Assembly: GCF_014850955.1 (NCBI RefSeq)
Contig: NZ_JACXSS010000001.1
Coordinates: 1,984,001-2,048,000, forward strand
DNA length: 64,000 bases
Origin: Methylomonas albis
GTDB taxonomy: Bacteria; Pseudomonadota; Gammaproteobacteria; Methylococcales; Methylomonadaceae
Direction: 5' to 3'
The notes under the pieces: model-generated
The model's database searches: none
The model's input: the letters and a program-made list of their open reading frames with translations, nothing else
Told to the model about the DNA's origin: nothing
Shown: positions 4,172 through 18,385 of the stretch, in pieces
How the letters are laid out: every line of letters begins with the position of its first letter
Numbering within the stretch: position 1 is the first letter of the stretch
Made by a program: the position numbers and the translations under genes

Positions 4172-7100
4172 TTATACCAAGCGTTTGCCAGTGCGCAGCA
4201 AGGCCTCGAATGCCGATGCCGGTAATGGTTTGCTGAAGTAATAGCCTTGTATCTCATCGCAGTGGTGTTCGCGCAGAAATTGACAGTGTGGTTCGGTTTC
4301 CACGCCTTCGGCGATCACCTTGAACTCCAGGTTGTGCGCCAGTGCAATCACCGCCAGTACAATAGTGGCGTCTTCCGGGTCGGTGAGCATGTCGCGGACG
4401 AAGGATTGATCAATTTTCAGGGTATCTACGCGAAATCGTTTCAAATAGCTGAGGCTGGAATAGCCGGTACCGAAATCGTCGATAGACAGCTTCACGCCGG
4501 CACTCCGGAGCTGGGTAAAAGTGGCGATGACCTTCTCGACATCCTGAGCGATCAAACTCTCGGTCAGTTCCAGTTCCAGTTGAGAGGCCGGCAGGCCGGT
4601 GTCTTGGAGCGTATTCATCACCCAACTGATCACATCCTGCTGTAGAAACTGGCGCGCGGATATGTTCACCGCCACACAGACCGGCGGCAAACCGGCGTCT
4701 GTCCAGGCTTTTGCCTGAGCGCAAGCCGCGCGCAACACCCAATCGCCTATGGGTACGATAAGCCCGGAGTCTTCGGCGATTGGAATGAACTGGGCGGGAG
4801 ACACCACACCCATCTCGGGATGTTGCCAGCGCAATAAGGCTTCGCAGCCGGAAATTTGCCCGTTTTTCAGGTTGACCTTGGGTTGGTAGACCAACTGAAA
4901 CTGCCCCGCCGCCAACGCTTCCCGCAAGCGTGTTTCTATATTGACACGGCGCAGGGTTTCCTCGCTCATCTCGCGGGTGAAGAATTGACAGGTGTTACGG
5001 CCTAGGTCTTTGGCGCGGTACATCGCCACGTCAGCGTTGTCGATCAGTGCCTCGGCGGTTTCGCCGTCCTGCGGAAAAACGCTGACGCCAACACTGACGG
5101 ACAAATGGATATTACGCCCCTGAACCAGGAGTGGACAATCAAGATGCTGGACAACTTTTTGGGCGAGGAAATAGGCATCGCTATCTTTGTTTAGATCAGT
5201 CAGCAAAATTAGAAACTCGTCACCGCCCAGGCGAGACACGGTATCCCCGTCCCTGATCAGACTGCCTAGCCGTTCGGCGGCTACCTTCAACACCGCGTCG
5301 CCGAATGGATGGCCGTAGCCATCGTTGACTACCTTGAAGCGATCCAGATCCAGATATAACAGTGCCAGCTGGCTACCGGCGCGACGCGCATGGGCAATGG
5401 CTTGGGCAATGCGGTCCTGGATCAGGTCGCGGTTAGGCAGGCCGGTCAGGCCGTCGTAGGTGGCAAGATAGCGAATCTGTAGTTCGGCCTGTTTGCGCGC
5501 GGTGATGTCCTGGATGGCGCCTATCATCCGCACGCCGCGCCCCGTGTCGTCACAGAGTAATTGGCCTCGATCAAACAAGTCTGCATAGCTGCCGTCCTTT
5601 CTCCGAAAACGGTATTCCTCGGACCAGTTGTTCGCGCTGCCGGCTACTGTGGCTTGAAGGTGTGCTACCACGCGGTCGCGGTCGTCGGGGTGAATGCGGC
5701 GAGCCCAGAAGTCGAATGAAGGCAAAATCTCGTCAGCGGTGTAGCCGAACACAATTTGAAAGTTCTCGCTCCACCAGATTTCGTTGCTGGCGAAGTCCCA
5801 GTCCCACACGACATCGCCTGTCGCGCGGGTTGCGGCGTGGAAGCGGGCCAAGCTTTCCCGCAACGCGGCATCCGCGCGTTTTCGTTCCGAGATGTCGTTT
5901 AGAAACAACGTACGGACTTCCAAGCCATTGCGTCTAAAAGCCGCTACCCGCAATTCCGCGTCGAACACGCCTTGGGCGCCTAGAAATTGAAACGCGCCGG
6001 AATCCGTGGTGCTCAGAATCTCCGCCCAATCAGCGCGGCCGTCGGGCGCGAACACGGCATCGGTGATGTTCTTACCAAGAATGTATTCACGCGCCAGGCC
6101 AAACAAACGTTCAGCGGCCGCGTTCCATTCTATAACGGTAAGCTGGTGATCCAGGCTAAAGATTGCGGTGTGAGTGGAGTCGAAAATAGCGCCTTTTAAG
6201 GCCAGCGAAGCGGCTTGCTGTTCCTTAGCTTCCAACAGTTGTTTAACGGCCACAGCCATGTGGTCGAGTGCTTCACCCAGAATTTGGGTTTCCCGGAATT
6301 CGTTTGTGGCGAAAGTGGCGGCCGCCGGGGCTTCCAGCTCGGTATGGCCGATGCCGGCAACTCGGCGTTCCAGCACCGCCAGCGGTTTGCCGAAGCGCCT
6401 GGCCATGCGCATCGAGACCAGCACCAGTCCCGCGGTAATTGCCACACCCATGCCGCCCACCTGAATTAACTGGCGGCGCAGCATGTCCTCTATATACGAC
6501 ACTTTTCGCGAGGTTATGACCAACCAAGACATGCCGCCTTTCAGCGGCATGCGCCGGGCGGCAACCCAGCGTTGCTCGCCTTCCAATACCATACGGTCTA
6601 GGAATAATTCGCCGACGAAATTCAGCAAAGGGTTCAACTCGGCAGGCAAGGGCAGTGGTGCCCGGCCTACTTGCAGCGGATCGCCGATTAGACGTGGAGC
6701 GGCTCCCAGCTCTAGGATCTGAAACCGGGAGTGATATTCCGTACCTATAGCACGTAGAAAGCTATTCAGTGCTGGGATGTCGAAGTCGGCATCCAGAACG
6801 CCGATCAAGCGACCGCCGGCATCTTTGAGCGCTTTGCCGTAGCTGAAGCCCCACAAGGGCTCATTGCCGGTGAAAGGAGCCGCCCAGCGGTAAGCCGGAA
6901 CCCAGGTGTCGCCGCTCGGACTGCGCAAAGCGGCTTCGTAGAACGCGTCGCTGCGGGGATCGTAGTATTGGTTGTAAAGCTGTTGATGAAGCACGAATCC
7001 CTGCTCGGTCAATATGAACTTTCGCGCCAGCGGGCCTTCCGTGCGGTTGCCCGGGAATAGCCAAAGTAAAATCTCGCCATTTGCAGTGCGTTCCAACGCG

Positions 7101-7489
7101 CCGTATTCGCCTGAAGCCGCCAAGGAGATGCCCAAGTAACTTAATTCCGGGCGCTGTTCAAACGCAGCCAGTGAATATTGCAGTGTCGATTGTAAAGTGG
7201 CGCCCGTTACTTCCGGCGACAGTGCAGCACGTTCAGCGGATTCGGCTGTCATCTCAGCCGCTCGAATCAAGGTCTGCAGGCGTTCGGTCGCGCGGTCCAA
7301 AGTTTCTTTCACTTCGCGCCGGGTGGTTTCCTCGGTGCTGGTGACGCTTTGCCACGTCATTCCAATTAAAAGCGCCAGACCAAGCAACATCACCAAACCC
7401 ACGATATTGGAAATTAAAACGCGGGTAAATGAGGGAGCAACTGCCTCGGATAACATTGTTTGTTCGGCAGGTGAAGGCGTGTCTTTCAT
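4172..7489 (-). CDS. Membrane-bound PAS-GGDEF-EAL cyclic-di-GMP enzyme
   Basis: A 1105-residue protein that probably both makes and degrades cyclic di-GMP. A first membrane segment at about residues 24-47 is followed by a periplasmic sensor region of about 290 residues (Cache-like), a second membrane segment at about 340-360, a HAMP-like linker, two PAS domains (about 430-545 and 560-670; the second ends in a PAC-type segment FRRKDGS), a GGDEF domain with the intact motif RLGGDEF, and an EAL domain with intact EALLRW and DDFGTGYSSL motifs. Both catalytic motifs are conserved, so either activity is possible. The periplasmic domain suggests that an extracellular signal sets the balance. A perfect 14-bp palindrome lies about 60 bp upstream. 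No partner gene adjoins it, but a PgaCD pair, activated by this messenger in E. coli, lies further along. Confidence 0.92.
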   Translation of the reverse strand: MKDTPSPAEQTMLSEAVAPSFTRVLISNIVGLVMLLGLALLIGMTWQSVTSTEETTRREVKETLDRATERLQTLIRAAEMTAESAERAALSPEVTGATLQSTLQYSLAAFEQRPELSYLGISLAASGEYGALERTANGEILLWLFPGNRTEGPLARKFILTEQGFVLHQQLYNQYYDPRSDAFYEAALRSPSGDTWVPAYRWAAPFTGNEPLWGFSYGKALKDAGGRLIGVLDADFDIPALNSFLRAIGTEYHSRFQILELGAAPRLIGDPLQVGRAPLPLPAELNPLLNFVGELFLDRMVLEGEQRWVAARRMPLKGGMSWLVITSRKVSYIEDMLRRQLIQVGGMGVAITAGLVLVSMRMARRFGKPLAVLERRVAGIGHTELEAPAAATFATNEFRETQILGEALDHMAVAVKQLLEAKEQQAASLALKGAIFDSTHTAIFSLDHQLTVIEWNAAAERLFGLAREYILGKNITDAVFAPDGRADWAEILSTTDSGAFQFLGAQGVFDAELRVAAFRRNGLEVRTLFLNDISERKRADAALRESLARFHAATRATGDVVWDWDFASNEIWWSENFQIVFGYTADEILPSFDFWARRIHPDDRDRVVAHLQATVAGSANNWSEEYRFRRKDGSYADLFDRGQLLCDDTGRGVRMIGAIQDITARKQAELQIRYLATYDGLTGLPNRDLIQDRIAQAIAHARRAGSQLALLYLDLDRFKVVNDGYGHPFGDAVLKVAAERLGSLIRDGDTVSRLGGDEFLILLTDLNKDSDAYFLAQKVVQHLDCPLLVQGRNIHLSVSVGVSVFPQDGETAEALIDNADVAMYRAKDLGRNTCQFFTREMSEETLRRVNIETRLREALAAGQFQLVYQPKVNLKNGQISGCEALLRWQHPEMGVVSPAQFIPIAEDSGLIVPIGDWVLRAACAQAKAWTDAGLPPVCVAVNISARQFLQQDVISWVMNTLQDTGLPASQLELELTESLIAQDVEKVIATFTQLRSAGVKLSIDDFGTGYSSLSYLKRFRVDTLKIDQSFVRDMLTDPEDATIVLAVIALAHNLEFKVIAEGVETEPHCQFLREHHCDEIQGYYFSKPLPASAFEALLRTGKRLV

Positions 7490-8291: not shown

Positions 8292-8477
8292 ATGTCTGAA
8301 AAATCCAAATTCGATCAAGACCTGAAAGTCTTGCCAGCAGAGTATTTAAATCGGGTGTCCGGCGGCTTGATTGGTCCGGATCAAGATTTAAGTCAATTTC
8401 CGCGCAAATTTTGGCCGGTCATCAATCCCGGCGCGTTCAACGTCAAAACTGTTGTAGCCAATCTCGTCGTGAGATAA
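8292..8477 (+). CDS. Double-glycine leader peptide precursor 1
   Basis: A 61-residue peptide starting at the ATG preceded by AAGGAGAAAGACA, an excellent ribosome site; in-frame codons upstream have no such site. Residues 1-25 form a leader ending in a double glycine (EYLNRVSGG, Gly24-Gly25), the signal cut by C39 peptidase exporters such as the one encoded downstream. Cleavage would release a 36-residue cationic, cysteine-free core (LIGPDQDLSQF...). The core shares GP, a following aromatic stretch and a VI-NPGA motif with the second precursor, so the two are probably paralogues. The lack of cysteines argues against a lanthipeptide or disulfide-rich bacteriocin. Bacteriocin or signalling peptide are both possible. 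Confidence 0.75.
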   Translation: MSEKSKFDQDLKVLPAEYLNRVSGGLIGPDQDLSQFPRKFWPVINPGAFNVKTVVANLVVR

Positions 8478-8506
8478 GGCTTTTTAACTTATTTAGGAGA
8501 ACTGTT

Positions 8507-8782
8507 ATGTCACACAAAACCAATCGAATCTCATCTGACCAATTATCAGCTTTTGCCGCCCAAGGTATCGAACGTGCTCTGCAAGCGCGTGAGGCTGCCG
8601 GCGTCGAATTAGACCAGGACCAATTAGATCAAATCAGCGGTGGCTTAAGCACTCTGCTAAGCAGAGGCATTATCGCCGGCGGCCCCTGGTTCGATCAGTT
8701 GAAGGGATTTAACAATGTCATTACCAACCCAGGCGCCGGTGGCCTGACTGGCGGCATTCAAGGAGCAACCCTGCTGGGTTGA
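8507..8782 (+). CDS. Double-glycine leader peptide precursor 2
   Basis: A 91-residue peptide with ribosome site TTAGGAGA before ATG 8507, 29 bp after precursor 1. The acidic, hydrophobic leader ends in ELDQDQLDQISGG (Gly45-Gly46), a textbook double-glycine signal of the ELxxxxLxxxxGG type. The predicted 45-residue core is glycine-rich and cysteine-free, begins LSTLLSRGIIAGGPWFDQL and ends GGIQGATLLG. GGIQG is a GxxxG helix-packing motif, as seen in two-peptide class IIb bacteriocins. The 46-residue leader is longer than is usual for bacteriocins. Export and trimming by the downstream ABC protein is very likely; biological activity is unknown. Confidence 0.8.
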   Translation: MSHKTNRISSDQLSAFAAQGIERALQAREAAGVELDQDQLDQISGGLSTLLSRGIIAGGPWFDQLKGFNNVITNPGAGGLTGGIQGATLLG

Positions 8783-8789
8783 TAGGGCC

Positions 8790-9224
8790 ATGACCTCGGA
8801 TAACCCAGTGTTATGCCCCAGCGCGCAGCCGGAATGGGAGGGCGCCCAAGTCATCGGCGTGATGACCGGCACCGCAGATAAGCCGGAAATGGCTTATCTG
8901 AATGCCCCGCAACCCGTGACTGAGCAATTGCTCGAATTGGCTGGCCCTGTCAGTCCGGCGGAAGTATTTCGCTTCTCCGCGCCATGCGCCTGCACAGGTT
9001 GTGGGCACTACGCGGAGGCGGAATCAAAATGTCGGCTGGCTGAAAAAGTCGTGCGTTTTACGCCGACAGTCACCGAGCAATTGCCGGTTTGCGCGATTCG
9101 TTCTGACTGTCGTTGGTGGCTACAGGAAGGCCGCTCGGCATGCTTTAGATGTCCGCAAGTGGTGACCAATAACCTCAAGCCGACCGAAGACATGCGGCGG
9201 GCAGCCGACTACGGCGTTCTCTGA
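8790..9224 (+). CDS. Cysteine-cluster protein of the peptide operon, unknown function
   Basis: A 144-residue soluble protein starting 7 bp after the stop of precursor 2, so very likely co-transcribed. Nine cysteines; eight form two quartets: Cys66, 68, 71 and 81 (CACTGC...C) and Cys101, 107, 118 and 121 (C-x5-C-x10-C-x2-CP). A conserved-looking stretch around CRWWLQEGRSACFRCPQVV lies in the second quartet. Such spacing suits two zinc sites or iron-sulfur clusters. There is no signal peptide, membrane segment, radical SAM CxxxCxxC motif or YcaO/LanM-like region. It could be a maturation factor, a leader-binding protein, a regulator or an immunity protein. I do not recognise a characterised family, and the position between precursors and exporter is the main clue. 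Confidence 0.75.
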   Translation: MTSDNPVLCPSAQPEWEGAQVIGVMTGTADKPEMAYLNAPQPVTEQLLELAGPVSPAEVFRFSAPCACTGCGHYAEAESKCRLAEKVVRFTPTVTEQLPVCAIRSDCRWWLQEGRSACFRCPQVVTNNLKPTEDMRRAADYGVL

Positions 9225-9270
9225 GGACTTTGGTCTATATGCTTCAATTGGGTGAGAAGGAATCGGCGCT

Positions 9271-10518
9271 ATGAAACATGAGTTATTTCGACAACAAGCC
9301 TTGGACTTTAAAAAAGACAAGCCGCTCGGGGAGGTTATTCACGTGGAGTCTTTGTCGTTTTCTTTTCTCACCGCTTTAGCCGTATGCAGTGCTGTGTTAC
9401 TAATTGCCTTTGCTTTGTGGGGCGAGTACACCCGTAAATCGCATGTGAGCGGTTATTTGTCGCCGAGCATGGGCTTAATCAAGGTATATGCACCGCAGGC
9501 CGGCACTTTGATCGAAAAACACGTACGCGAAGGGCAGGCGGTGAAGGCCGGCGATACCTTATTCGTGTTGTCCACTGAGAGCAGTTCGCGGGAAACCCCG
9601 CAAACCCAAGCGGCGGCGATAGAACAACTGAAGCAACGCCGGGAAAGTCTGGAGACCGAACTGGTCAAACAAGAGCAAATCGACCGGATTCAATACCTTT
9701 CTGTACTGGATAAGCTGCATGGTATGCAACGCGAGTTGCAACAAGTGAATAGTGAGCTGGACACTCAGCAGCAGCGCTTGGCCGGTGCCGCCGCAACCTC
9801 GCAACGTTATCAGCAGCTGCTAAGCACGAAATTCGTTTCGGCGGTGCAAGCTCAGCAAAAGCAAGACGAATGGCTGGATCATCAAGCCAAGCTGCAAGCG
9901 CTGCAACGGGTACAAATGACCTTACAACGCGACATCCATTCCGCACAGCTGGAAGCGGACAGCAGCCAAATGAAGTTTAAAAACCAACGTGCAGCCATCG
10001 AGCGCAATATTTCCACGCTGGCGCAAAACATTACCGAATCCGAATCGCGCCGCAACATAGTGATTACCGCACCACACGACGGCACAGTCACCACCATCCT
10101 GGCCGAGCAGGGGCAAAACGCCACGACCGCCAATCCCTTGCTGTCCATCTTGCCGCAAGGTGCCAAGTTACAAGCTCAGTTATTGGTGCCTTCCAGCGCG
10201 GTAGGTTTTGTCGAGCAGGGGCAAATGGTTTCGGTGCGCTATCAAGCCTTTCCTTATCAACGCTTCGGTAGCCACCAAGGCCGTATCGTCGAAATCGCCA
10301 AAACCTTGATTACCCCAAAAGAAGCCGATCTGCCGGTGACGTTACAAGAACCGGTGTACCGGGTCACTGTCGAGATCGATAAACAAGCGGTACAAGCCTA
10401 TCGCCAGGATATACCGCTGCAATCCGGCATGCTGTTGGATGCCGACATCTGGCTGGACCATCGCCGCTTGATCGAATGGGTATTCGATCCTCTTTACAGC
10501 ATTCTAGGACGGGTTTAA
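9271..10518 (+). CDS. HlyD-family periplasmic adaptor (CvaA-like)
   Basis: A 415-residue membrane-fusion protein. A single membrane segment at about residues 33-50 (FLTALAVCSAVLLIAFALW) is followed by a first biotinyl-lipoyl half (GYLSPSMGLIKVYAPQAGTL), a long glutamine-rich coiled coil at about 105-245, and the returning lipoyl half with the beta-barrel (ITAPHDGTVTTI...). The family bridges an inner-membrane ABC exporter to an outer-membrane TolC channel. Its stop is separated from the exporter start by 2 bp, indicating translational coupling. No TolC homologue is encoded here, so a chromosomal one elsewhere must complete the pump. Confidence 0.93.
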   Translation: MKHELFRQQALDFKKDKPLGEVIHVESLSFSFLTALAVCSAVLLIAFALWGEYTRKSHVSGYLSPSMGLIKVYAPQAGTLIEKHVREGQAVKAGDTLFVLSTESSSRETPQTQAAAIEQLKQRRESLETELVKQEQIDRIQYLSVLDKLHGMQRELQQVNSELDTQQQRLAGAAATSQRYQQLLSTKFVSAVQAQQKQDEWLDHQAKLQALQRVQMTLQRDIHSAQLEADSSQMKFKNQRAAIERNISTLAQNITESESRRNIVITAPHDGTVTTILAEQGQNATTANPLLSILPQGAKLQAQLLVPSSAVGFVEQGQMVSVRYQAFPYQRFGSHQGRIVEIAKTLITPKEADLPVTLQEPVYRVTVEIDKQAVQAYRQDIPLQSGMLLDADIWLDHRRLIEWVFDPLYSILGRV

Positions 10519-10520
10519 CC

Positions 10521-12650
10521 ATGACTATGCTCCACATCCTCGATTTTTCCGGCCGCAGAAAAACCCCGCTGATTCTGCAAACCGAAGCGGCAGAATGCGG
10601 CTTGGCCTGTCTGGCGATGGTGGCTAATTTTCATGGTCACCGGGTCGACTTAGCCAGCCTACGGCAGAAGTTTTCCCTGTCCTTGAAAGGCTCAACCTTG
10701 AATCATCTGATCCAGATCGCCAACCAATTGCATCTGGGCTCGCGGCCGGTGCGGGTGGATTTGAACGAGCTGAGCAAACTGAGTCTGCCGGCCATCTTGC
10801 ATTGGGATTTCAATCATTTTGTGGTGTTGACCCATGTCAAACGTGGTGTGGCGACGATACTCGATCCAGCCAAAGGCAGCGTCCACTTAGCCTTTACCGA
10901 AGTCTCCAAACATTTCACCGGCATCGCCTTGGAGTTGCAGCCCACGCAAGCGTTTACCGCAAAAACAGAACGTCAACAAATCAAACTATACCGCCTCATC
11001 GGCCAGTTAAATGGTGCCTCCAGCGCTACCTTGCAAATCATTTTATTGGCTGCAGCCATAGAAGTGTTTGCAATCGTAGCGCCTTTTTTTATGCAACTGG
11101 TGGTGGATAACGCGGTGGTGGCCAGGGATACCAATTTATTGACGGTATTGGGTTTGGGATTTTTATTGCTGGCCTTGATTCAGATCGGCATCACCGCTTT
11201 GCGCTCCTGGGTAGTGCTGGTACTCAGTACGTCGGTGAACTTGCAGATGATGAGCAATCTGTTCGGACATTTATTGCAGTTGCCGATGAATTTCTTCGAG
11301 AAGCGGCATCTGGGCGACATCGTCTCCCGTTTCGAATCGTTAAACGTGATTCAACGCACCCTGACCACCAGCTTTCTGGAAGCCATCATCGACGGCGTGA
11401 TGGCATTGGTTACCCTGGGCATGATGCTGGTGTACAGCTGGAAGTTGGCGGCCATCGTCAGCTTGGCCGCGCTGCTTTATGGCCTGCTACGCCTGGCTTC
11501 GTTCGCGCCGTTGCGCACCGCCAGCGAAGAACAAATCCTGCGCGCCGCCAAGCAGCAAACCAATTTATTGGAAACTGTGCGCGGCATGCAAAGCGTGAAG
11601 TTATTTAACCGCCAGTTGCAACGCCGGCACGGTTATCAAAATTTGATGGTCGATCATTTCAACGCCGGTATTCGCGTGCAAAAGCTGAATATCATTTACC
11701 GGGGGTTGAACAGCTTGTTGTTCGGGGTGGAAAATATCGCGGTGATCTGGCTAGGAGCCTTGTTTATTTTGGACGGCGGCTTTTCGGTAGGGATGCTGTT
11801 TGCCTTTATGTCGTTTAAAGATCAATTCACGCACCGGGTCGGTAGCTTCATAGAAAAAGGTATCGAATTCAAAATGCTGGGCTTGCACACCGAGCGCGTC
11901 GCCGATATAGCGCTGGCGGTAGCCGAGGATGAGCATGTTAGCGGTGCCCGTCACGAGCAACTCGCCGCATCGATCCAGATCCGCAATTTGGATTTCAGTT
12001 ACGCGCCATCCGAGCCGTCGGTACTGAAAAATCTGAATCTGGATTTTGCCGAAGGCGAGTCGGTGGCGCTCATCGGCCCATCTGGCTACGGCAAAACCAC
12101 GCTGGCTAAACTGATTCTGGGACTGTTGCAGCCCAGTGCAGGCGAAATCCTGATCGGTGGCGTGCGCTTAAACCGCATCGACAGCCACGATTACCGCAAT
12201 ATGGTGGCGGCGGTGATGCAGGAAGATCAATTGTTCGCCGGCTCGATTGCCGACAACATCTGTTTCTTCGATCCGGAACCGGATCAAACCTGGATAGAAA
12301 CCTGCGGGCAACTGGCTGCGGTGCATCAGGATGTCATGGCTATGCCCATGGGCTACAACACACTGATCGGCGACATGGGTACGGTATTGTCCGGCGGTCA
12401 GAAACAACGGGTGTTACTGGCTCGTGCCTTATACAAACGCCCTAAAATTCTGGTGCTGGACGAAGCCACCAGCCATTTGGATGTGGCCCGTGAAAAACTG
12501 GTGAACGGCGCGGTGCAGCAACTAAAACTCACCCGCATCATCATTGCGCACCGGCCGGAAACCATCGCGTCGGTGGATAGGGTGATCGATTTACAAGCCA
12601 TCGCGGACGCCGCGCTTGGCGAAACTGGTTACGTATCGCAGGCTGCTTAA
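10521..12650 (+). CDS. Peptidase C39-containing ABC exporter (CvaB-like)
   Basis: A 709-residue protein. The N-terminal C39 peptidase (about 1-140) has Gln20, catalytic Cys26 in QTEAAECGLACLAM, the His in FNHFVVL and the Asp in ILDPAKG. It should cut the leaders of the two upstream precursors after their double glycine. The membrane domain spans about 150-440. The nucleotide-binding domain carries GPSGYGKTT (Walker A), LSGGQKQR (signature) and ILVLDEATSHLD (Walker B). All catalytic residues are present, so the transporter looks active. The ATG at 10521 is preferred over an upstream in-frame codon at 10476, which lies inside the adaptor gene. Confidence 0.94.
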   Translation: MTMLHILDFSGRRKTPLILQTEAAECGLACLAMVANFHGHRVDLASLRQKFSLSLKGSTLNHLIQIANQLHLGSRPVRVDLNELSKLSLPAILHWDFNHFVVLTHVKRGVATILDPAKGSVHLAFTEVSKHFTGIALELQPTQAFTAKTERQQIKLYRLIGQLNGASSATLQIILLAAAIEVFAIVAPFFMQLVVDNAVVARDTNLLTVLGLGFLLLALIQIGITALRSWVVLVLSTSVNLQMMSNLFGHLLQLPMNFFEKRHLGDIVSRFESLNVIQRTLTTSFLEAIIDGVMALVTLGMMLVYSWKLAAIVSLAALLYGLLRLASFAPLRTASEEQILRAAKQQTNLLETVRGMQSVKLFNRQLQRRHGYQNLMVDHFNAGIRVQKLNIIYRGLNSLLFGVENIAVIWLGALFILDGGFSVGMLFAFMSFKDQFTHRVGSFIEKGIEFKMLGLHTERVADIALAVAEDEHVSGARHEQLAASIQIRNLDFSYAPSEPSVLKNLNLDFAEGESVALIGPSGYGKTTLAKLILGLLQPSAGEILIGGVRLNRIDSHDYRNMVAAVMQEDQLFAGSIADNICFFDPEPDQTWIETCGQLAAVHQDVMAMPMGYNTLIGDMGTVLSGGQKQRVLLARALYKRPKILVLDEATSHLDVAREKLVNGAVQQLKLTRIIIAHRPETIASVDRVIDLQAIADAALGETGYVSQAA

Positions 12651-13184: not shown

Positions 13185-14225
13185 TTATGTCGTGGAACGC
13201 CTGCCGAATGCCGAGCTGCAGCGGCTGCGCATCGCTACTGCGATTAAACCGGAGAGCATCAATAACACACTTGGCGGTAATGGCACGCTTGTCAGATAAT
13301 GGGTTCCCGAGGCGGCATTCAAGGTAAAATTCGTTATCTGCTGATGATTGATGTCGAATAATTCAATACCGGTTAATTTCGCGGTTAATGAAGAATCTGC
13401 GGTGCCGTGTGCCCAGGCCAGCAGGCCGATCTGCACGCTCCACGGTTGATCCCACACTATGGGCAGATCCAGACTGTAAAACGTACTGCTCCCGCTTAGG
13501 CTACCTATGCCGGCAGTCCAGCCCGCAGGTGGCGTCGTGTTAGAGATGGTACTGAGATCCCCGCGCCTGGCATGCGCATTGAGAACCTCATACAGCGGGC
13601 CGCCCTGGTTCTGGACATCGAGCACAGCATAATTTTCACCGAAGAAATAGGGAGCCGGGGTGCCGAGCGAAGTCAGGCTGCCGTCGACAGCAAATTGATA
13701 GCGCACAAAGCCATTGCTGAGATCGGCCACCTGCGAGCTCGATGCCGTCAGCGTATCGGAAAATTGCGCCGCTCCCGTCGATTCGAATAGCCCCCCCGTG
13801 GGGTAGCCTGGAATGCCGCCTGAAATAGCTGCGTGCGCTGAAGCGCTAAGTTTGCCGTAATTAGCGATCGAATCGCCTTTGCCGTCGAAATAACCACTGC
13901 CCGGATTACCGAGACTAACAGGCGACAGGCTTTTCGTATAGGTCAGGGGTCCGGTCGCGGCGCTAACGCTCGAAACACCGCCGCTATACCCGCAGGGGCC
14001 GATACCACCTACCGGAACCGAGACTCCACCAAACGTAAATATGCCTGAAAACGCCGGACTGTAGCTGGTGCAACCCTGGGCAATGGAGCCCCCCCCGCCG
14101 ACTACGCCGGCATAGGCATTTAGTTCGGCATAAGCTTGGGGCGCTGAAAGGGTAATTGCCAGGCCGAGAATGATTTTTATAATCGGTGCAATAGGCCAAG
14201 CAGTATGTTTACTATTATTCACCAT
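13185..14225 (-). CDS. Secreted protein with a PEP-CTERM-like (VPLPxS) sorting tail
   Basis: A protein of about 346 residues from ATG 14225, chosen because AAAGAGAG precedes it; an upstream in-frame codon at 14336 would add 37 residues lacking signal-peptide character. The signal peptide runs to about residue 32 (IIKIILGLAITLSAPQAYA). The body is a Gly/Ser/Thr-rich beta protein without known domains. The tail has VPLPPSVLLMLSGLIAVAM followed by Arg/Ser residues, a variant of the tripartite PEP-CTERM/VPLPA signal recognised by an exosortase. Probably a surface or matrix protein. No exosortase is encoded in the window. It lies between two transposase remnants. Confidence 0.75.
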   Translation of the reverse strand: MVNNSKHTAWPIAPIIKIILGLAITLSAPQAYAELNAYAGVVGGGGSIAQGCTSYSPAFSGIFTFGGVSVPVGGIGPCGYSGGVSSVSAATGPLTYTKSLSPVSLGNPGSGYFDGKGDSIANYGKLSASAHAAISGGIPGYPTGGLFESTGAAQFSDTLTASSSQVADLSNGFVRYQFAVDGSLTSLGTPAPYFFGENYAVLDVQNQGGPLYEVLNAHARRGDLSTISNTTPPAGWTAGIGSLSGSSTFYSLDLPIVWDQPWSVQIGLLAWAHGTADSSLTAKLTGIELFDINHQQITNFTLNAASGTHYLTSVPLPPSVLLMLSGLIAVAMRSRCSSAFGRRSTT

Positions 14226-14477
14226 TATTCTCTCTTTCTGAGTTACCGCCCAGTTAGTACGAGGGTTCCAATGGGATGACGTAGGCCTCTGTTGGTAAAG
14301 GCTGAATTTATTATTCTTAATCGTAGGGATTTTCATGTTATTGACCTAAGTATTGAATACCAATTTAATACCAATTGAATGCCATGCTAGATTTATTCAA
14401 TGTCTATTGTCAACTTATTTTTTACGTCAATTTTTGTTTTTTGATTGGATGACCCAATTTTGGCCCGTGAGTAATCT

Positions 14478-15280
14478 ATCGCATTCTAAAAGCCGCCCGG
14501 CAACTGAAACACCGCCGCAGTGAACGCCCCAGCCAGCCTCGCACCAAGCCCAAAGCCTTGAGCGCGACAGCACCGAACCAACTTTACAGTTGGGACATTA
14601 CCTATCTGCCGACCGCCATCAAAGGCCAGTTCTACTATCTCTACCTGTTCCTCGATATTTTCAGTAGCCAGATCGTCGGCTGGCAGGTGTTTGCAGAAGA
14701 AAGCAGCCACTACGCCAGCGAGCTGTTGCGGGATATTGTTGGGCGCGAAGGTCTACAACCTGGGCAAAGTCATCCTGCATTCCGATAACGGTAGCCACAT
14801 ACCCACAGGGCACAAGTGAAAGGTGCCACCATACTGGCCACACTGCAACAGCTCGGCGTCATGCCCTCGCTGAGTCGCCCGGCGGTGAGTAACGACAATC
14901 CGTTTTCGGAATCGCTGTTCAAAACCTTGAAATATCGGCCGCCATACCCGTTGAAACCGTTGGCCGATCTGAGCGTCGCTCGTGAATGGGTGGCCGATTT
15001 AGTGCATTGGTATTTATGACCTTCAGGATATAACCACGAGCATCGGCATGGTGCTATTGGTTTCGTGACCCCGGCCCAACGCCATACTGGATTGGACGAG
15101 GCGCTGTTGAATCAACGCAAAGCGCTTTATGAAGACGCCCGTCGCCAAAACCCTCGGCGCTGGAGCCAAAACACCCGGAACTGGAACAGAGTCCATACCG
15201 TGCACTTAAATCCGGATCATGCCGAAACCCAAAACAAACCAACTCAGGAAATTGCTAACCAGGCGCAAATTGCTGCATAA
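14478..15280 (+). pseudogene. Broken IS3-family transposase (OrfB)
   Basis: The integrase core is spread over three frames. The first part reads APNQLYSWDITYLPT and SSQIVGWQVFAEESSHYASE, then the frame shifts near 14760. VILHSDNGS and SRPAVSNDNPFSESLFKTL follow, a stop lies at about 15017, and a last part (TPAQRHTGLDEALL, then HLNPDHAETQNKP) runs to 15280. The DDE-type pieces DITYLP, HSDNGS and NDNPFSE are recognisable. A roughly 20-bp insertion follows HSDNGS. No intact element ends were found. This is inactive transposon debris. Confidence 0.85.
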
Positions 15281-15721: not shown

Positions 15722-16387
15722 TTATGGGTGGGAAGGAAAAATACCTTGCGTGGCTATGCAGTATTTGATACCCAAAGCAGGTGAACGGTTATCAAACGGC
15801 TCGCTGGCTCCCGCAATTTCAATGGCAGTGTTTGGCGTACCCGTAAACTTTATGATGTTTGCCTTTAGGGAAACATTGGGGGTATCGCTTGAATAGATGT
15901 TATCTCTCGATGTCGAGGCCGCTAATACATTGCCGGTGGGAGTACTCTTATTGCCGGTTGTACTTACAGCTTCAATCGTAGCAAAAACATTATCTAAAAA
16001 AGTTTGCGCAAGATGGGTGTGTCTAGGCATTTGGCCTTGGCTTAGAGTTACACTGTCTCTGCCAACTTCTTCGCCAACCGATATTGGCAATAGCCCCGGA
16101 CCTTGCCCGGCCCCAATCGGCGAACGGCCGCGCAGGTCCGGCAACGCGAAGGTCTGCACCCCATCGCCGCCATACTGCGTACCTAATAAGGAAAACAAGG
16201 CTGTATTTTGCGCAATGCTCAGGGTCTGTCCGGCGGCTTCCAAATAACCGCGCGGACAAAAATTATAGGTAAATGTGCAAATCTCGCCCAGAAAGGGGTC
16301 GGAACCGCAAGCGGAGGCTGACACTGGTAAGCCGGTGATAGCGATCATGGCCAGTTTTAATAGTGGTTTGAATGTTGGTTTTGACAT
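15722..16387 (-). CDS. Phage tail-collar / microcystin-dependent-protein family, secreted
   Basis: A 221-residue protein. A signal peptide of about 26 residues (LAMIAITGLPVSASA) precedes a tail-collar domain: PFLGEICTFTYNFCPRGYLEA, then TALFSLLGTQYGGDGVQTFALPDLRGRSPIG, the hallmark of the family, and a C-terminal SPALGIKYCIATQGIFPS. Such domains come from phage tail fibres, but many bacteria carry stand-alone secreted copies of unknown role. Cysteines in the N- and C-terminal parts may form disulfides. Only 15 bp separate it from the upstream PEP-CTERM gene on the same strand, so the two are probably one operon. Confidence 0.88.
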   Translation of the reverse strand: MSKPTFKPLLKLAMIAITGLPVSASACGSDPFLGEICTFTYNFCPRGYLEAAGQTLSIAQNTALFSLLGTQYGGDGVQTFALPDLRGRSPIGAGQGPGLLPISVGEEVGRDSVTLSQGQMPRHTHLAQTFLDNVFATIEAVSTTGNKSTPTGNVLAASTSRDNIYSSDTPNVSLKANIIKFTGTPNTAIEIAGASEPFDNRSPALGIKYCIATQGIFPSHP

Positions 16388-17368: not shown

Positions 17369-18127
17369 TTTAAACCTCTTTATTTGATTAGATTTATCAT
17401 TCCGGTTATTTATTACTTTGATTTATATAAAGAACAAATTTATTTCATAAAAACCGAGAGTTTATTATTTTTTACAGCTTATAAAAAAATTAAAATCACT
17501 GGAAGTATGTAACTATTTAACGGCAGTTAATCTAGAGTGTTTTCTTCTGCCAATTAAAATATCAGGCACTAAGTTTTTGAATTGAGTCATGTAAGGTATT
17601 GCCTATTTCATTTCAATAATTTTTTCTTACATGAATTAATAGCCAATTCTTGTGCCCGTTATTACTTGATAGTGTGAAAATAATATAACTTGCTGTTATT
17701 TATTGGTTTTATTTGATGGCGCTTGGCCAAGGCCCGCTGCGCGGCGACCGGATGTAGAATCGGTTAGGCACGATATGTCGCACGAAGTACGATATATCGT
17801 TTTTGTGTCTTGATGAGCCGTGGGTCAATCTATCCGAGTGATGTGGAGCGACCATGACATCGTGAGGATGAAAATACCTGTTTTAGCAGAACCGAGCGTA
17901 TTGGGGATGGGAATAAGGGTATGCAAGGTTTGAGCTGTCTCTGTTCACTGTGTGGTCAGTGGCTTTGCTCTGTTATTAGAAACTGTGACCTGGACACAGA
18001 ATCCCGGAAACAAGTGCGATTGGACAAAAGCCTGTCTGCGTTCGCTACGCTGCACGATTGCTTGCAACCGCACCGCGCCGGGCAGCGCTGCCGCCAAATC
18101 CATCGGCTACACGCTTATCACCCACAG
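17369..18127. other. Intergenic, AT-rich then decayed sequence
   Basis: The first 330 bp are very AT-rich, consistent with a promoter region of the PEP-CTERM gene. An inverted repeat lies at 17770-17800. The stretch from 17920 to 18127 keeps open frames on the plus strand, but they show no recognisable protein and run into the DUF2130 remnant. Confidence 0.4.
17770..17800 (+). terminator. Inverted repeat followed by T-tract
   Basis: ACGATATGTCG and CGATATATCGT pair with one mismatch around a 9-nt loop, followed by TTTTTG. The shape is that of an intrinsic terminator on the plus strand, but no intact plus-strand gene lies upstream. It could be a leftover terminator or an operator. Confidence 0.35.
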
Positions 18128-18385
18128 GCGTTCAGCTTGCAGTTGTTTGGCGACTTGCTGCGCGACTTGATCGTCCAGGCCGCGCTTGGCTTCGGCGAGT
18201 GGCTTTTCCTGATCTTTAAAGCCTTGCTCGCGTAATGCGATAGCTTGGTCTTTTTGCTGGAGTTGTTGCTCGAACTATTTGCGGGTGGCGGCCAGTAATG
18301 GCGCGGCTAGCGATTCGGTTAACGGTACGGTACTGCTGCAATTGGGGCAGGTGATGGTAGTTTCGGTGATGTGGCTTGGTTTTTA
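18128..18385 (-). pseudogene. N-terminal remnant of a DUF2130 gene
   Basis: The minus strand reads TETTITCPNCSSTVPLTESL, then AAPLLAATRK, a stop, FEQQLQQKDQAIALREQGF and AEAKRGLDDQVAQQLQAE. This is the start of DUF2130 proteins: a zinc-ribbon half-site CPNC and a long coiled coil. One nonsense codon interrupts it and the conserved C-terminal domain is gone. There is no ribosome site or intact start. Confidence 0.6.

Follow-up and report, generated by a model that had tools for sequence, protein, structure and literature searches.

A small eight-cysteine protein accompanies peptide genes in several phyla

The window analysed here is a stretch of 64,000 nucleotides from the Methylomonas albis genome (5.4 Mb; contig NZ_JACXSS010000001.1, positions 1,984,001 to 2,048,000), and it carries at 8292–12650 a row of five genes on the + strand: two small peptide precursors (P1 and P2), a cysteine-rich protein, an HlyD-family adaptor and a peptidase-containing ABC exporter. 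The original prediction took this row for a new peptide-export system. That part found no support, as the HlyD and C39 ABC proteins are of ordinary kinds; the row is better described as an exporter of ordinary type for a peptide family to which an undescribed eight-cysteine partner is tightly linked. Across the relatives that we found, the constant neighbour of the cysteine gene is nearly always a small peptide gene, and the data suggest that the cysteine protein serves an unstudied peptide family, either as a dedicated helper or as an enzyme that modifies it. We assign a probability of roughly 0.55 to the reading that it is a dedicated partner acting on the precursor, as an enzyme or as a chaperone.

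The cysteine protein (8790–9224, + strand, 144 amino acids) starts 7 bases past the P2 stop and contains nine cysteines. In an alignment of 49 members, a good many of which are closely related, 49/49 have seven of the cysteines, and C9 stands in all 47 sequences covering that position; the conserved residues are C9, C66, C71, C81, C101, C107, C118 and C121. The ninth, C68, is a cysteine in 16 of the 49 members. The predicted count of nine was therefore right, but one of the nine is not conserved, and the eight that are kept may form the two sets of four that had been proposed. Outside the alignment stand a Polymorphobacter member (L043), L159, L160 and a degenerate Streptomyces copy (L044), which lacks at least one conserved cysteine. 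The window protein has no significant match in Pfam, NCBIfam, PADLOC or PHROGs, nor anything below E 0.25 among PDB sequences, which agrees with the earlier statement that no function could be named for it. Matches among relatives were weak: PF25339 in 4 of 8 members (best E 0.024), NF002010 in 1 of 12 (E 0.16) and PF10868 in one protein (E 0.048). Literature word searches, with subscription papers mostly outside their coverage, surfaced no description. Within the libraries searched, the protein thus represents an undescribed family. It has no long hydrophobic stretch (maximum 19-residue Kyte–Doolittle mean 0.8), suggesting that it is probably cytoplasmic, and it probably binds metal.

Relatives of the cysteine gene are rare, and the genome counts given here are lower bounds, since a subset of candidates was scored per genome. 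The gene was found in 19/339 cyanobacterial genomes and in 7/398 genomes of Pseudomonadota, including that of the window; the class of G779 contributes four (4/352), all among these seven. Plasmid records yielded 9 of 72,556 (three from Agrobacterium vitis, three from Streptomyces, and one each from Nostoc, Spirosoma and Polymorphobacter), phage records 1 of 50,697 and viral contigs none. The phage record (L159, GenBank MT836289, an unverified human faecal 'Bacteriophage sp.') reads to us as a fragment of a high-GC actinobacterial chromosome, not a phage. Two further candidates, L026 and L027, were dropped because stops close around the matched stretch; L026 alone has a short CAIRxxCxWW word in common with the family, and the other cysteines are missing from it.

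Several of these loci showed features of their own. On the Polymorphobacter plasmid the cysteine gene is unannotated (about 9850–10200 of L043) and adjoins an opposite-strand radical SAM protein that is closest, under cut-off, to the cyclophane-forming YhhB/FxsB maturases. The Streptomyces plasmid relatives (L040, L042, L044 and L160) lie near condensation-domain, nonribosomal peptide synthetase or polyketide synthase-type genes, and in each the cysteine gene follows a small open reading frame (ORF) with a C-terminal cysteine; by our own reading, two of these ORFs have Sec-like N-termini and GID...C ends.

Partner peptides in cyanobacteria and other bacteria

In cyanobacteria, a short peptide of the EINDLI/ISDL...GG type lies within about 600 bases of the cysteine gene in 20/21 loci (L080–L099 and L008), upstream in 18 and downstream alone in two (L095 and L098). 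L099 has both, its upstream copy ending in GD and its downstream copy in GG. A profile of 15 such peptides (E 1e-4) matched 16/339 cyanobacterial genomes, all of them among the 19 that carry the cysteine gene, and 0/320 others (Fisher p about 1e-24, relatedness uncorrected). As the profile was built from neighbours of the cysteine gene, what carries information is its lack of matches elsewhere. It missed three cysteine-positive genomes: G166, whose 55-residue match contains a stop, G386 (truncated), and G199, whose peptide is divergent (L095). When the 15 peptides were aligned, words of the PPIxxGLIA type stood out from an otherwise variable core, P65 and G69 being at least 90% conserved. One genome, G203, encodes two further such peptides on other contigs (L157, G203:C50, and L158, G203:C91), one of them with a PPITAGIF core, and a single cysteine gene was found in it, which makes action in trans plausible.

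The original prediction had proposed a homologue search as a check on co-occurrence with C39 exporters and double-glycine peptides, and such peptides do occur with the cysteine protein in other phyla. Among other Pseudomonadota, G779, G507 and the A. vitis plasmid share a 105–110-residue partner with FPDIGTVGLIW-type words, the partners in G627 and G637 share FPxEWLGLI, G527 has a leader peptide ending in GA downstream of the cysteine gene, and in G539 a clear partner is missing. In Spirosoma a GG peptide lies directly upstream, with an annotated NHLP export operon farther upstream; in Nostoc (C057) the upstream gene is an NHLP precursor; and in L159 the peptide has 62 residues, a P2-like leader and GPILVGIIAWPE as its core.

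We compared these peptides by hhalign. The leader of P2 matched that of the cyanobacterial peptides with a probability of 74% (E 2.8e-5). The L159 peptide matched the P2 leader at 36% (E 3.7e-4, 39% over 28 residues) and the G507, G779 and A. vitis peptides at 63% (E 6.9e-5); the other pairings were weak (0.7–8%). Because these E-values come from single comparisons and double-glycine leaders are short, the results support, and do not prove, a single peptide family. Motif discovery was run on 12 chosen peptides (six cyanobacterial, some related), which beat 40/40 shuffles at widths 6, 8 and 10, and on eight peptides (two cyanobacterial), which beat 100/100 at width 6, barely, and 99/100 at width 8; both runs gave the real set more expectation–maximization starts than the shuffles, which favours the real set. 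With equal starts, the eight peptides beat 60/60 (width 6) and 59/60 (width 8) and the 12 peptides 60/60 at both. A matrix of 12 cyanobacterial core words, picked by eye, scored p 0.0004 in L159, 0.004 in L103 and 0.007 in Spirosoma, with no signal (p 0.16–0.73) in the other eight of the 11 combined peptides, P1 and P2 included. The combined p was 1.4e-4 and rose to 0.007 when L159 was removed; it does not include a second P2 (p 0.31) or three controls (p 0.11–0.35), which were also scored. The evidence for a universal core motif across the partner peptides is no more than suggestive.

Eight conserved cysteines, in a gene that adjoins a peptide gene in nearly all loci, would also suit a redox or metal sensor regulating the peptide operon, or a small electron-transfer protein. 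We consider this quite unlikely, since no DNA-binding or other domain was matched, and both the gene order, between precursors and exporter, and the G203 peptides on other contigs better fit action on the peptides.

Conservation of the cassette across Methylomonas

The five ORFs were found as predicted, on the + strand and in one row, and all five occur in the same order in 15/15 other complete Methylomonas loci (five contigs and ten genome stretches), with varying flanks; the gene at 4172–7489, for example, lies beside the cassette in 5 of the 15. A laboratory strain, LW13 (L004), carries the cassette. Since the order is kept while the flanks change, the cassette is not a chance grouping. An orthologue of the exporter (75–100% identity) was detected in 16/37 Methylomonas genomes, and the P2 profile in exactly those 16. 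The cysteine gene occurs in the same 16 and in one metagenome-assembled genome (MAG) whose contig stops inside HlyD. On the MAG contig L007 (G030:C61) the cysteine gene is present and neither P1 nor P2 was detected; the gene is preceded by a short ORF whose start is P2-like and whose tail differs. In the eight closest loci, identity to the window is 96.5–99.3% for the cysteine protein, 75–82% for P2 and 66–98% for P1. The cysteine protein is thus conserved beside faster-changing peptides, chiefly P2.

The exporter is optional and the link with spliceotide clusters is partial

The original prediction would have been undermined by a cysteine protein occurring widely without exporters or precursors. 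We searched the fetched stretches, several of which end at contig ends, with the window HlyD and exporter (E 1e-10, ORFs of at least 150 amino acids). Both were found in 9/21 cyanobacterial loci and HlyD alone in two more, leaving 12/21 in which the pair was not found nearby. HlyD was found in none of the six non-gamma Pseudomonadota loci, two of which have an ABC match, and the A. vitis locus and two Streptomyces loci matched neither. Spirosoma has two ABC matches, inside its annotated NHLP operon, and the Nostoc plasmid stretch gave no match but has an annotated NHLP secretion protein at its edge. The outcome is mixed: the cysteine protein does occur where no exporter pair was found nearby, yet a small peptide gene is nearly always beside it. 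The unit is the peptide plus the cysteine protein; Methylomonas, some cyanobacteria and Spirosoma add an exporter to it.

A frequent cyanobacterial order is a GG peptide, the cysteine gene, Nif11 peptides with LYG or MYG cores and a radical SAM protein. A small LLPRSAW protein in some of these loci is presumably PlpY. TIGR04103, the PlpX type, was over cut-off in 16/339 cyanobacterial genomes, one match (G353) having internal stops. The cysteine gene occurs in 12/16 PlpX-positive genomes against 7/323 others (Fisher p 2e-14, relatedness uncorrected); PlpX lies within 2 kb of it in 11 of the 12 and on a different contig in G203. PlpXY, which carries out the tyramine excision of spliceotides, acts on MYG and LYG sites (PMC10533398). 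This co-occurrence would be expected if the cysteine protein were a passenger of spliceotide clusters that serves PlpX-type tyramine excision. We regard this as very improbable: 7 of the 19 cysteine-positive cyanobacterial genomes have no PlpX over cut-off, nor has the M. albis genome (best 75.9 bits against a cut-off of 725), and YG, the xYG core motif, is absent from P1 and P2. These exceptions indicate that the cysteine protein belongs with the GG peptide, not with PlpX.

Precursors and exporter of the window

P1 (8292–8477, + strand, 61 amino acids) has a 25-residue leader (8292–8366) ending in NRVSGG and a cationic core of 36 residues (8367–8474). P2 (8507–8782, + strand, 91 amino acids) has a 46-residue leader (8507–8644) ending in DQISGG and a core of 45 residues (8645–8779). 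AGGAG precedes the ATG of both. Both cores are free of cysteine, as the original prediction said, and their predicted isoelectric points are 10.0 and 8.8; the average masses calculated for the unmodified cores are about 4036.7 and 4454.0. The description of two paralogous double-glycine precursors stood for the Gly-Gly leaders; paralogy was unsupported, as BLASTP of P1 against P2 aligned six residues at E 0.14. Gly-Gly is retained in the P1/P2 pairs of the 15 other Methylomonas loci, except for one P1 with SGA (L028). Among 16 Methylomonas P1 sequences, the core block DL-QFP---WP-INPG is invariant and the remaining positions are mostly variable.

P1 has no family match in Pfam or NCBIfam. P2 resembles the class IIc/IIb bacteriocins weakly, matching Bacteriocin_IIc (PF10439, E 3.9e-4, 20.8 bits against a cut-off of 27.1) and TIGR03949 (14.3 against 21.5 bits) under their cut-offs; P1 matches neither. 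This likeness and the two small cationic cores are compatible with an unmodified class II-type two-peptide bacteriocin whose immunity protein is the cysteine protein. Such an arrangement is unlikely. The cysteine protein has no membrane segment, it accompanies very different peptides, and it is more conserved than P2 and kept across phyla, which is not typical of immunity proteins.

The adaptor (9271–10518, + strand, 415 amino acids; HlyD_3, PF13437, E 4.6e-16) and the exporter (10521–12650, + strand, 709 amino acids) gave strong Pfam matches, as predicted, the latter with a C39 peptidase (PF03412, Peptidase_C39, E 3.4e-35), a membrane domain (PF00664, ABC_membrane) and an ATPase (PF00005, ABC_tran). 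The exporter probably starts at 10521, directly after the HlyD stop, rather than at 10476. Its translation contains TEAAECGLACLAM, NHFVVL, GPSGYGKTT, LSGGQKQR and ILVLDEATSHLD. Leaders ending in RVSGG and QISGG and an exporter with a C39 peptidase and an ATPase are the features of C39-exported double-glycine peptides. The same elements, a GG leader, a C39 ABC exporter and HlyD in one row, are shared with the cyanobacterial bacteriocin clusters described in the main text of PMC3140520, to which the window row adds the conserved cysteine protein; that main text, tables and supplements lying outside the count, contains 'cysteine' and 'hypothetical protein' 0 times.

Similarity to the NHLP/Nif11 (NHLM) export systems was also seen. 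The best NCBIfam model of the exporter is TIGR03796 (E 4.5e-145, 484.6 bits against a cut-off of 853.3), TIGR03797 scores 345.4 against 709.4 bits, and the adaptor matches TIGR01843 (E 2.9e-42, under cut-off) and TIGR03794 (E 1.1e-19); the Spirosoma relative also lies downstream of an NHLP export operon. In contrast to these systems, the window matches stay under the cut-offs, neither P1 nor P2 matches an NHLP or Nif11 leader in Pfam or NCBIfam up to E 1, and the row has a single ABC protein.

The same genome contains a second HlyD/C39-ABC operon (L120, G000:C1:2265000-2280000), with an exporter 55% identical to that of the window and, by our own reading, a TolC-like ORF. Its ORF list has no cysteine gene, the genome having one, and a possible peptide with the leader end VSGAD lies at L120:11920–12231.

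A possible role for the cysteine protein

The absence of a membrane segment, the position between precursors and exporter, the retention wherever the peptide is found and a change slower than that of P2 point to a cytoplasmic partner that acts before cleavage and export. We infer from the gene set the following route, in which metal binding, physical interaction, any modification, cleavage, export and biological activity are all conditional. The operon would make, process and export two small peptides with double-glycine leaders. The cysteine protein would be folded around two four-cysteine metal sites (zinc or iron–sulfur), bind the precursor in the cytoplasm and ready its hydrophobic core, by covalent modification or by dedicated chaperoning. 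The C39 domain of the exporter would then cleave behind Gly-Gly and so free the core from its leader, and release of the mature peptides would fall to the ABC/HlyD pair together with a TolC encoded elsewhere.

Several findings weigh against a dedicated partner acting on the precursor. HlyD and the exporter are 95–96% identical in close relatives, so the conservation of the cysteine protein there is not special. No catalytic motif was recognised in it, and AlphaFold predictions from 9- and 6-row inputs were of low confidence (mean predicted local distance difference test scores of 51.9 and 37.6). When the cysteine family was compared by hhalign with 29 PqqD-like sequences of Methylomonas, representing the PqqD-like, leader-binding type of the RiPP (ribosomally synthesized and post-translationally modified peptide) recognition element, it showed no similarity to them (probability 0.1%, E 0.59), and the result was the same with and without six of the 35 rows that were dropped as not PqqD-like. 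Among the peptides, the PPIxxGLIA core motif is not significant in P1 (p 0.45) or P2 (p 0.34), the small ORFs ahead of the Streptomyces members gave no match to it (two tested), the L105 locus has no clear partner, and the cyanobacterial exception, L096, combines a truncated cysteine gene with a different GG peptide downstream.

A stronger version, in which the cysteine protein is a true peptide-modifying metalloenzyme and P1 and P2 are the modified substrates of a new RiPP class, is possible, though we think it less likely than not. The cysteine gene is the sole gene of the cassette, in the window and in all 15 other complete loci, that is neither precursor nor transport. It also lies beside precursors of other RiPP classes, namely an NHLP precursor with a PlpX-type maturase on the Nostoc plasmid and the Nif11 peptides with xYG cores in many cyanobacterial loci, and short conserved core blocks occur in P1 and in the cyanobacterial peptides. 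Such blocks could equally mark a target-binding or chaperone-binding site, though, and the protein has no homology to any enzyme. In its widest form the idea is that hydrophobic-core peptides of Methylomonas, cyanobacteria, other Pseudomonadota, Bacteroidota and Actinomycetota would be modified, in trans where they are unlinked, by a small protein that bears two Cys4 metal sites and has no kinship with the RiPP enzymes known so far, and that this protein would have been combined time and again with different export or RiPP machineries; we would put this forward as a speculative maturation class, doubtful at present.

Genome mining for ribosomal peptides relies on marker enzymes. A conserved cysteine family that tracks peptides this strictly, and that none of the searched libraries contains, would supply a new marker. 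It would reveal loci in methanotrophs, cyanobacteria, Streptomyces plasmids and Bacteroidota that current rules may overlook or class as plain bacteriocins. An enzyme of this kind would bring new peptide chemistry within a small and readily expressed protein, and a chaperone would be a new means of handling hydrophobic peptides.

Genomic setting of the row

The gaps between P1, P2, the cysteine gene, HlyD and the exporter are 29, 7, 46 and 2 bases, and the five genes may be co-transcribed. An Rfam search gave no match reaching the gathering score, and a promoter and terminator scan was not better than shuffles. In agreement with the original prediction, no lanthionine, YcaO or radical SAM enzyme was detected by Pfam (E 1e-5) among the operon proteins or in 10 of the 11 flanking ORFs of at least 90 amino acids in window 1–24.2 kb, the one left out being 17921–18232 (104 amino acids). 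This class-enzyme test covered the operon and its flanks; elsewhere in the genome, where enzymes might act in trans, it covered PlpX alone. Two of the 10 scanned ORFs have no Pfam match at the same threshold.

Of the flanking genes, those at 13188–14336 and 14558–15280 comprise a protein that looks secreted to us, with a PEP-CTERM-like C-terminus and no Pfam match, and adjoining short ORFs that resemble transposase pieces. A phage tail collar domain protein (PF07484) is encoded at 15725–16387, with a copy 70–84% identical near the cassette in 8/15 other Methylomonas loci. The region 20455–24159 matches polysaccharide deacetylase/GHL13, glycosyltransferase 2 and PgaD, and resembles a poly-beta-1,6-GlcNAc operon.

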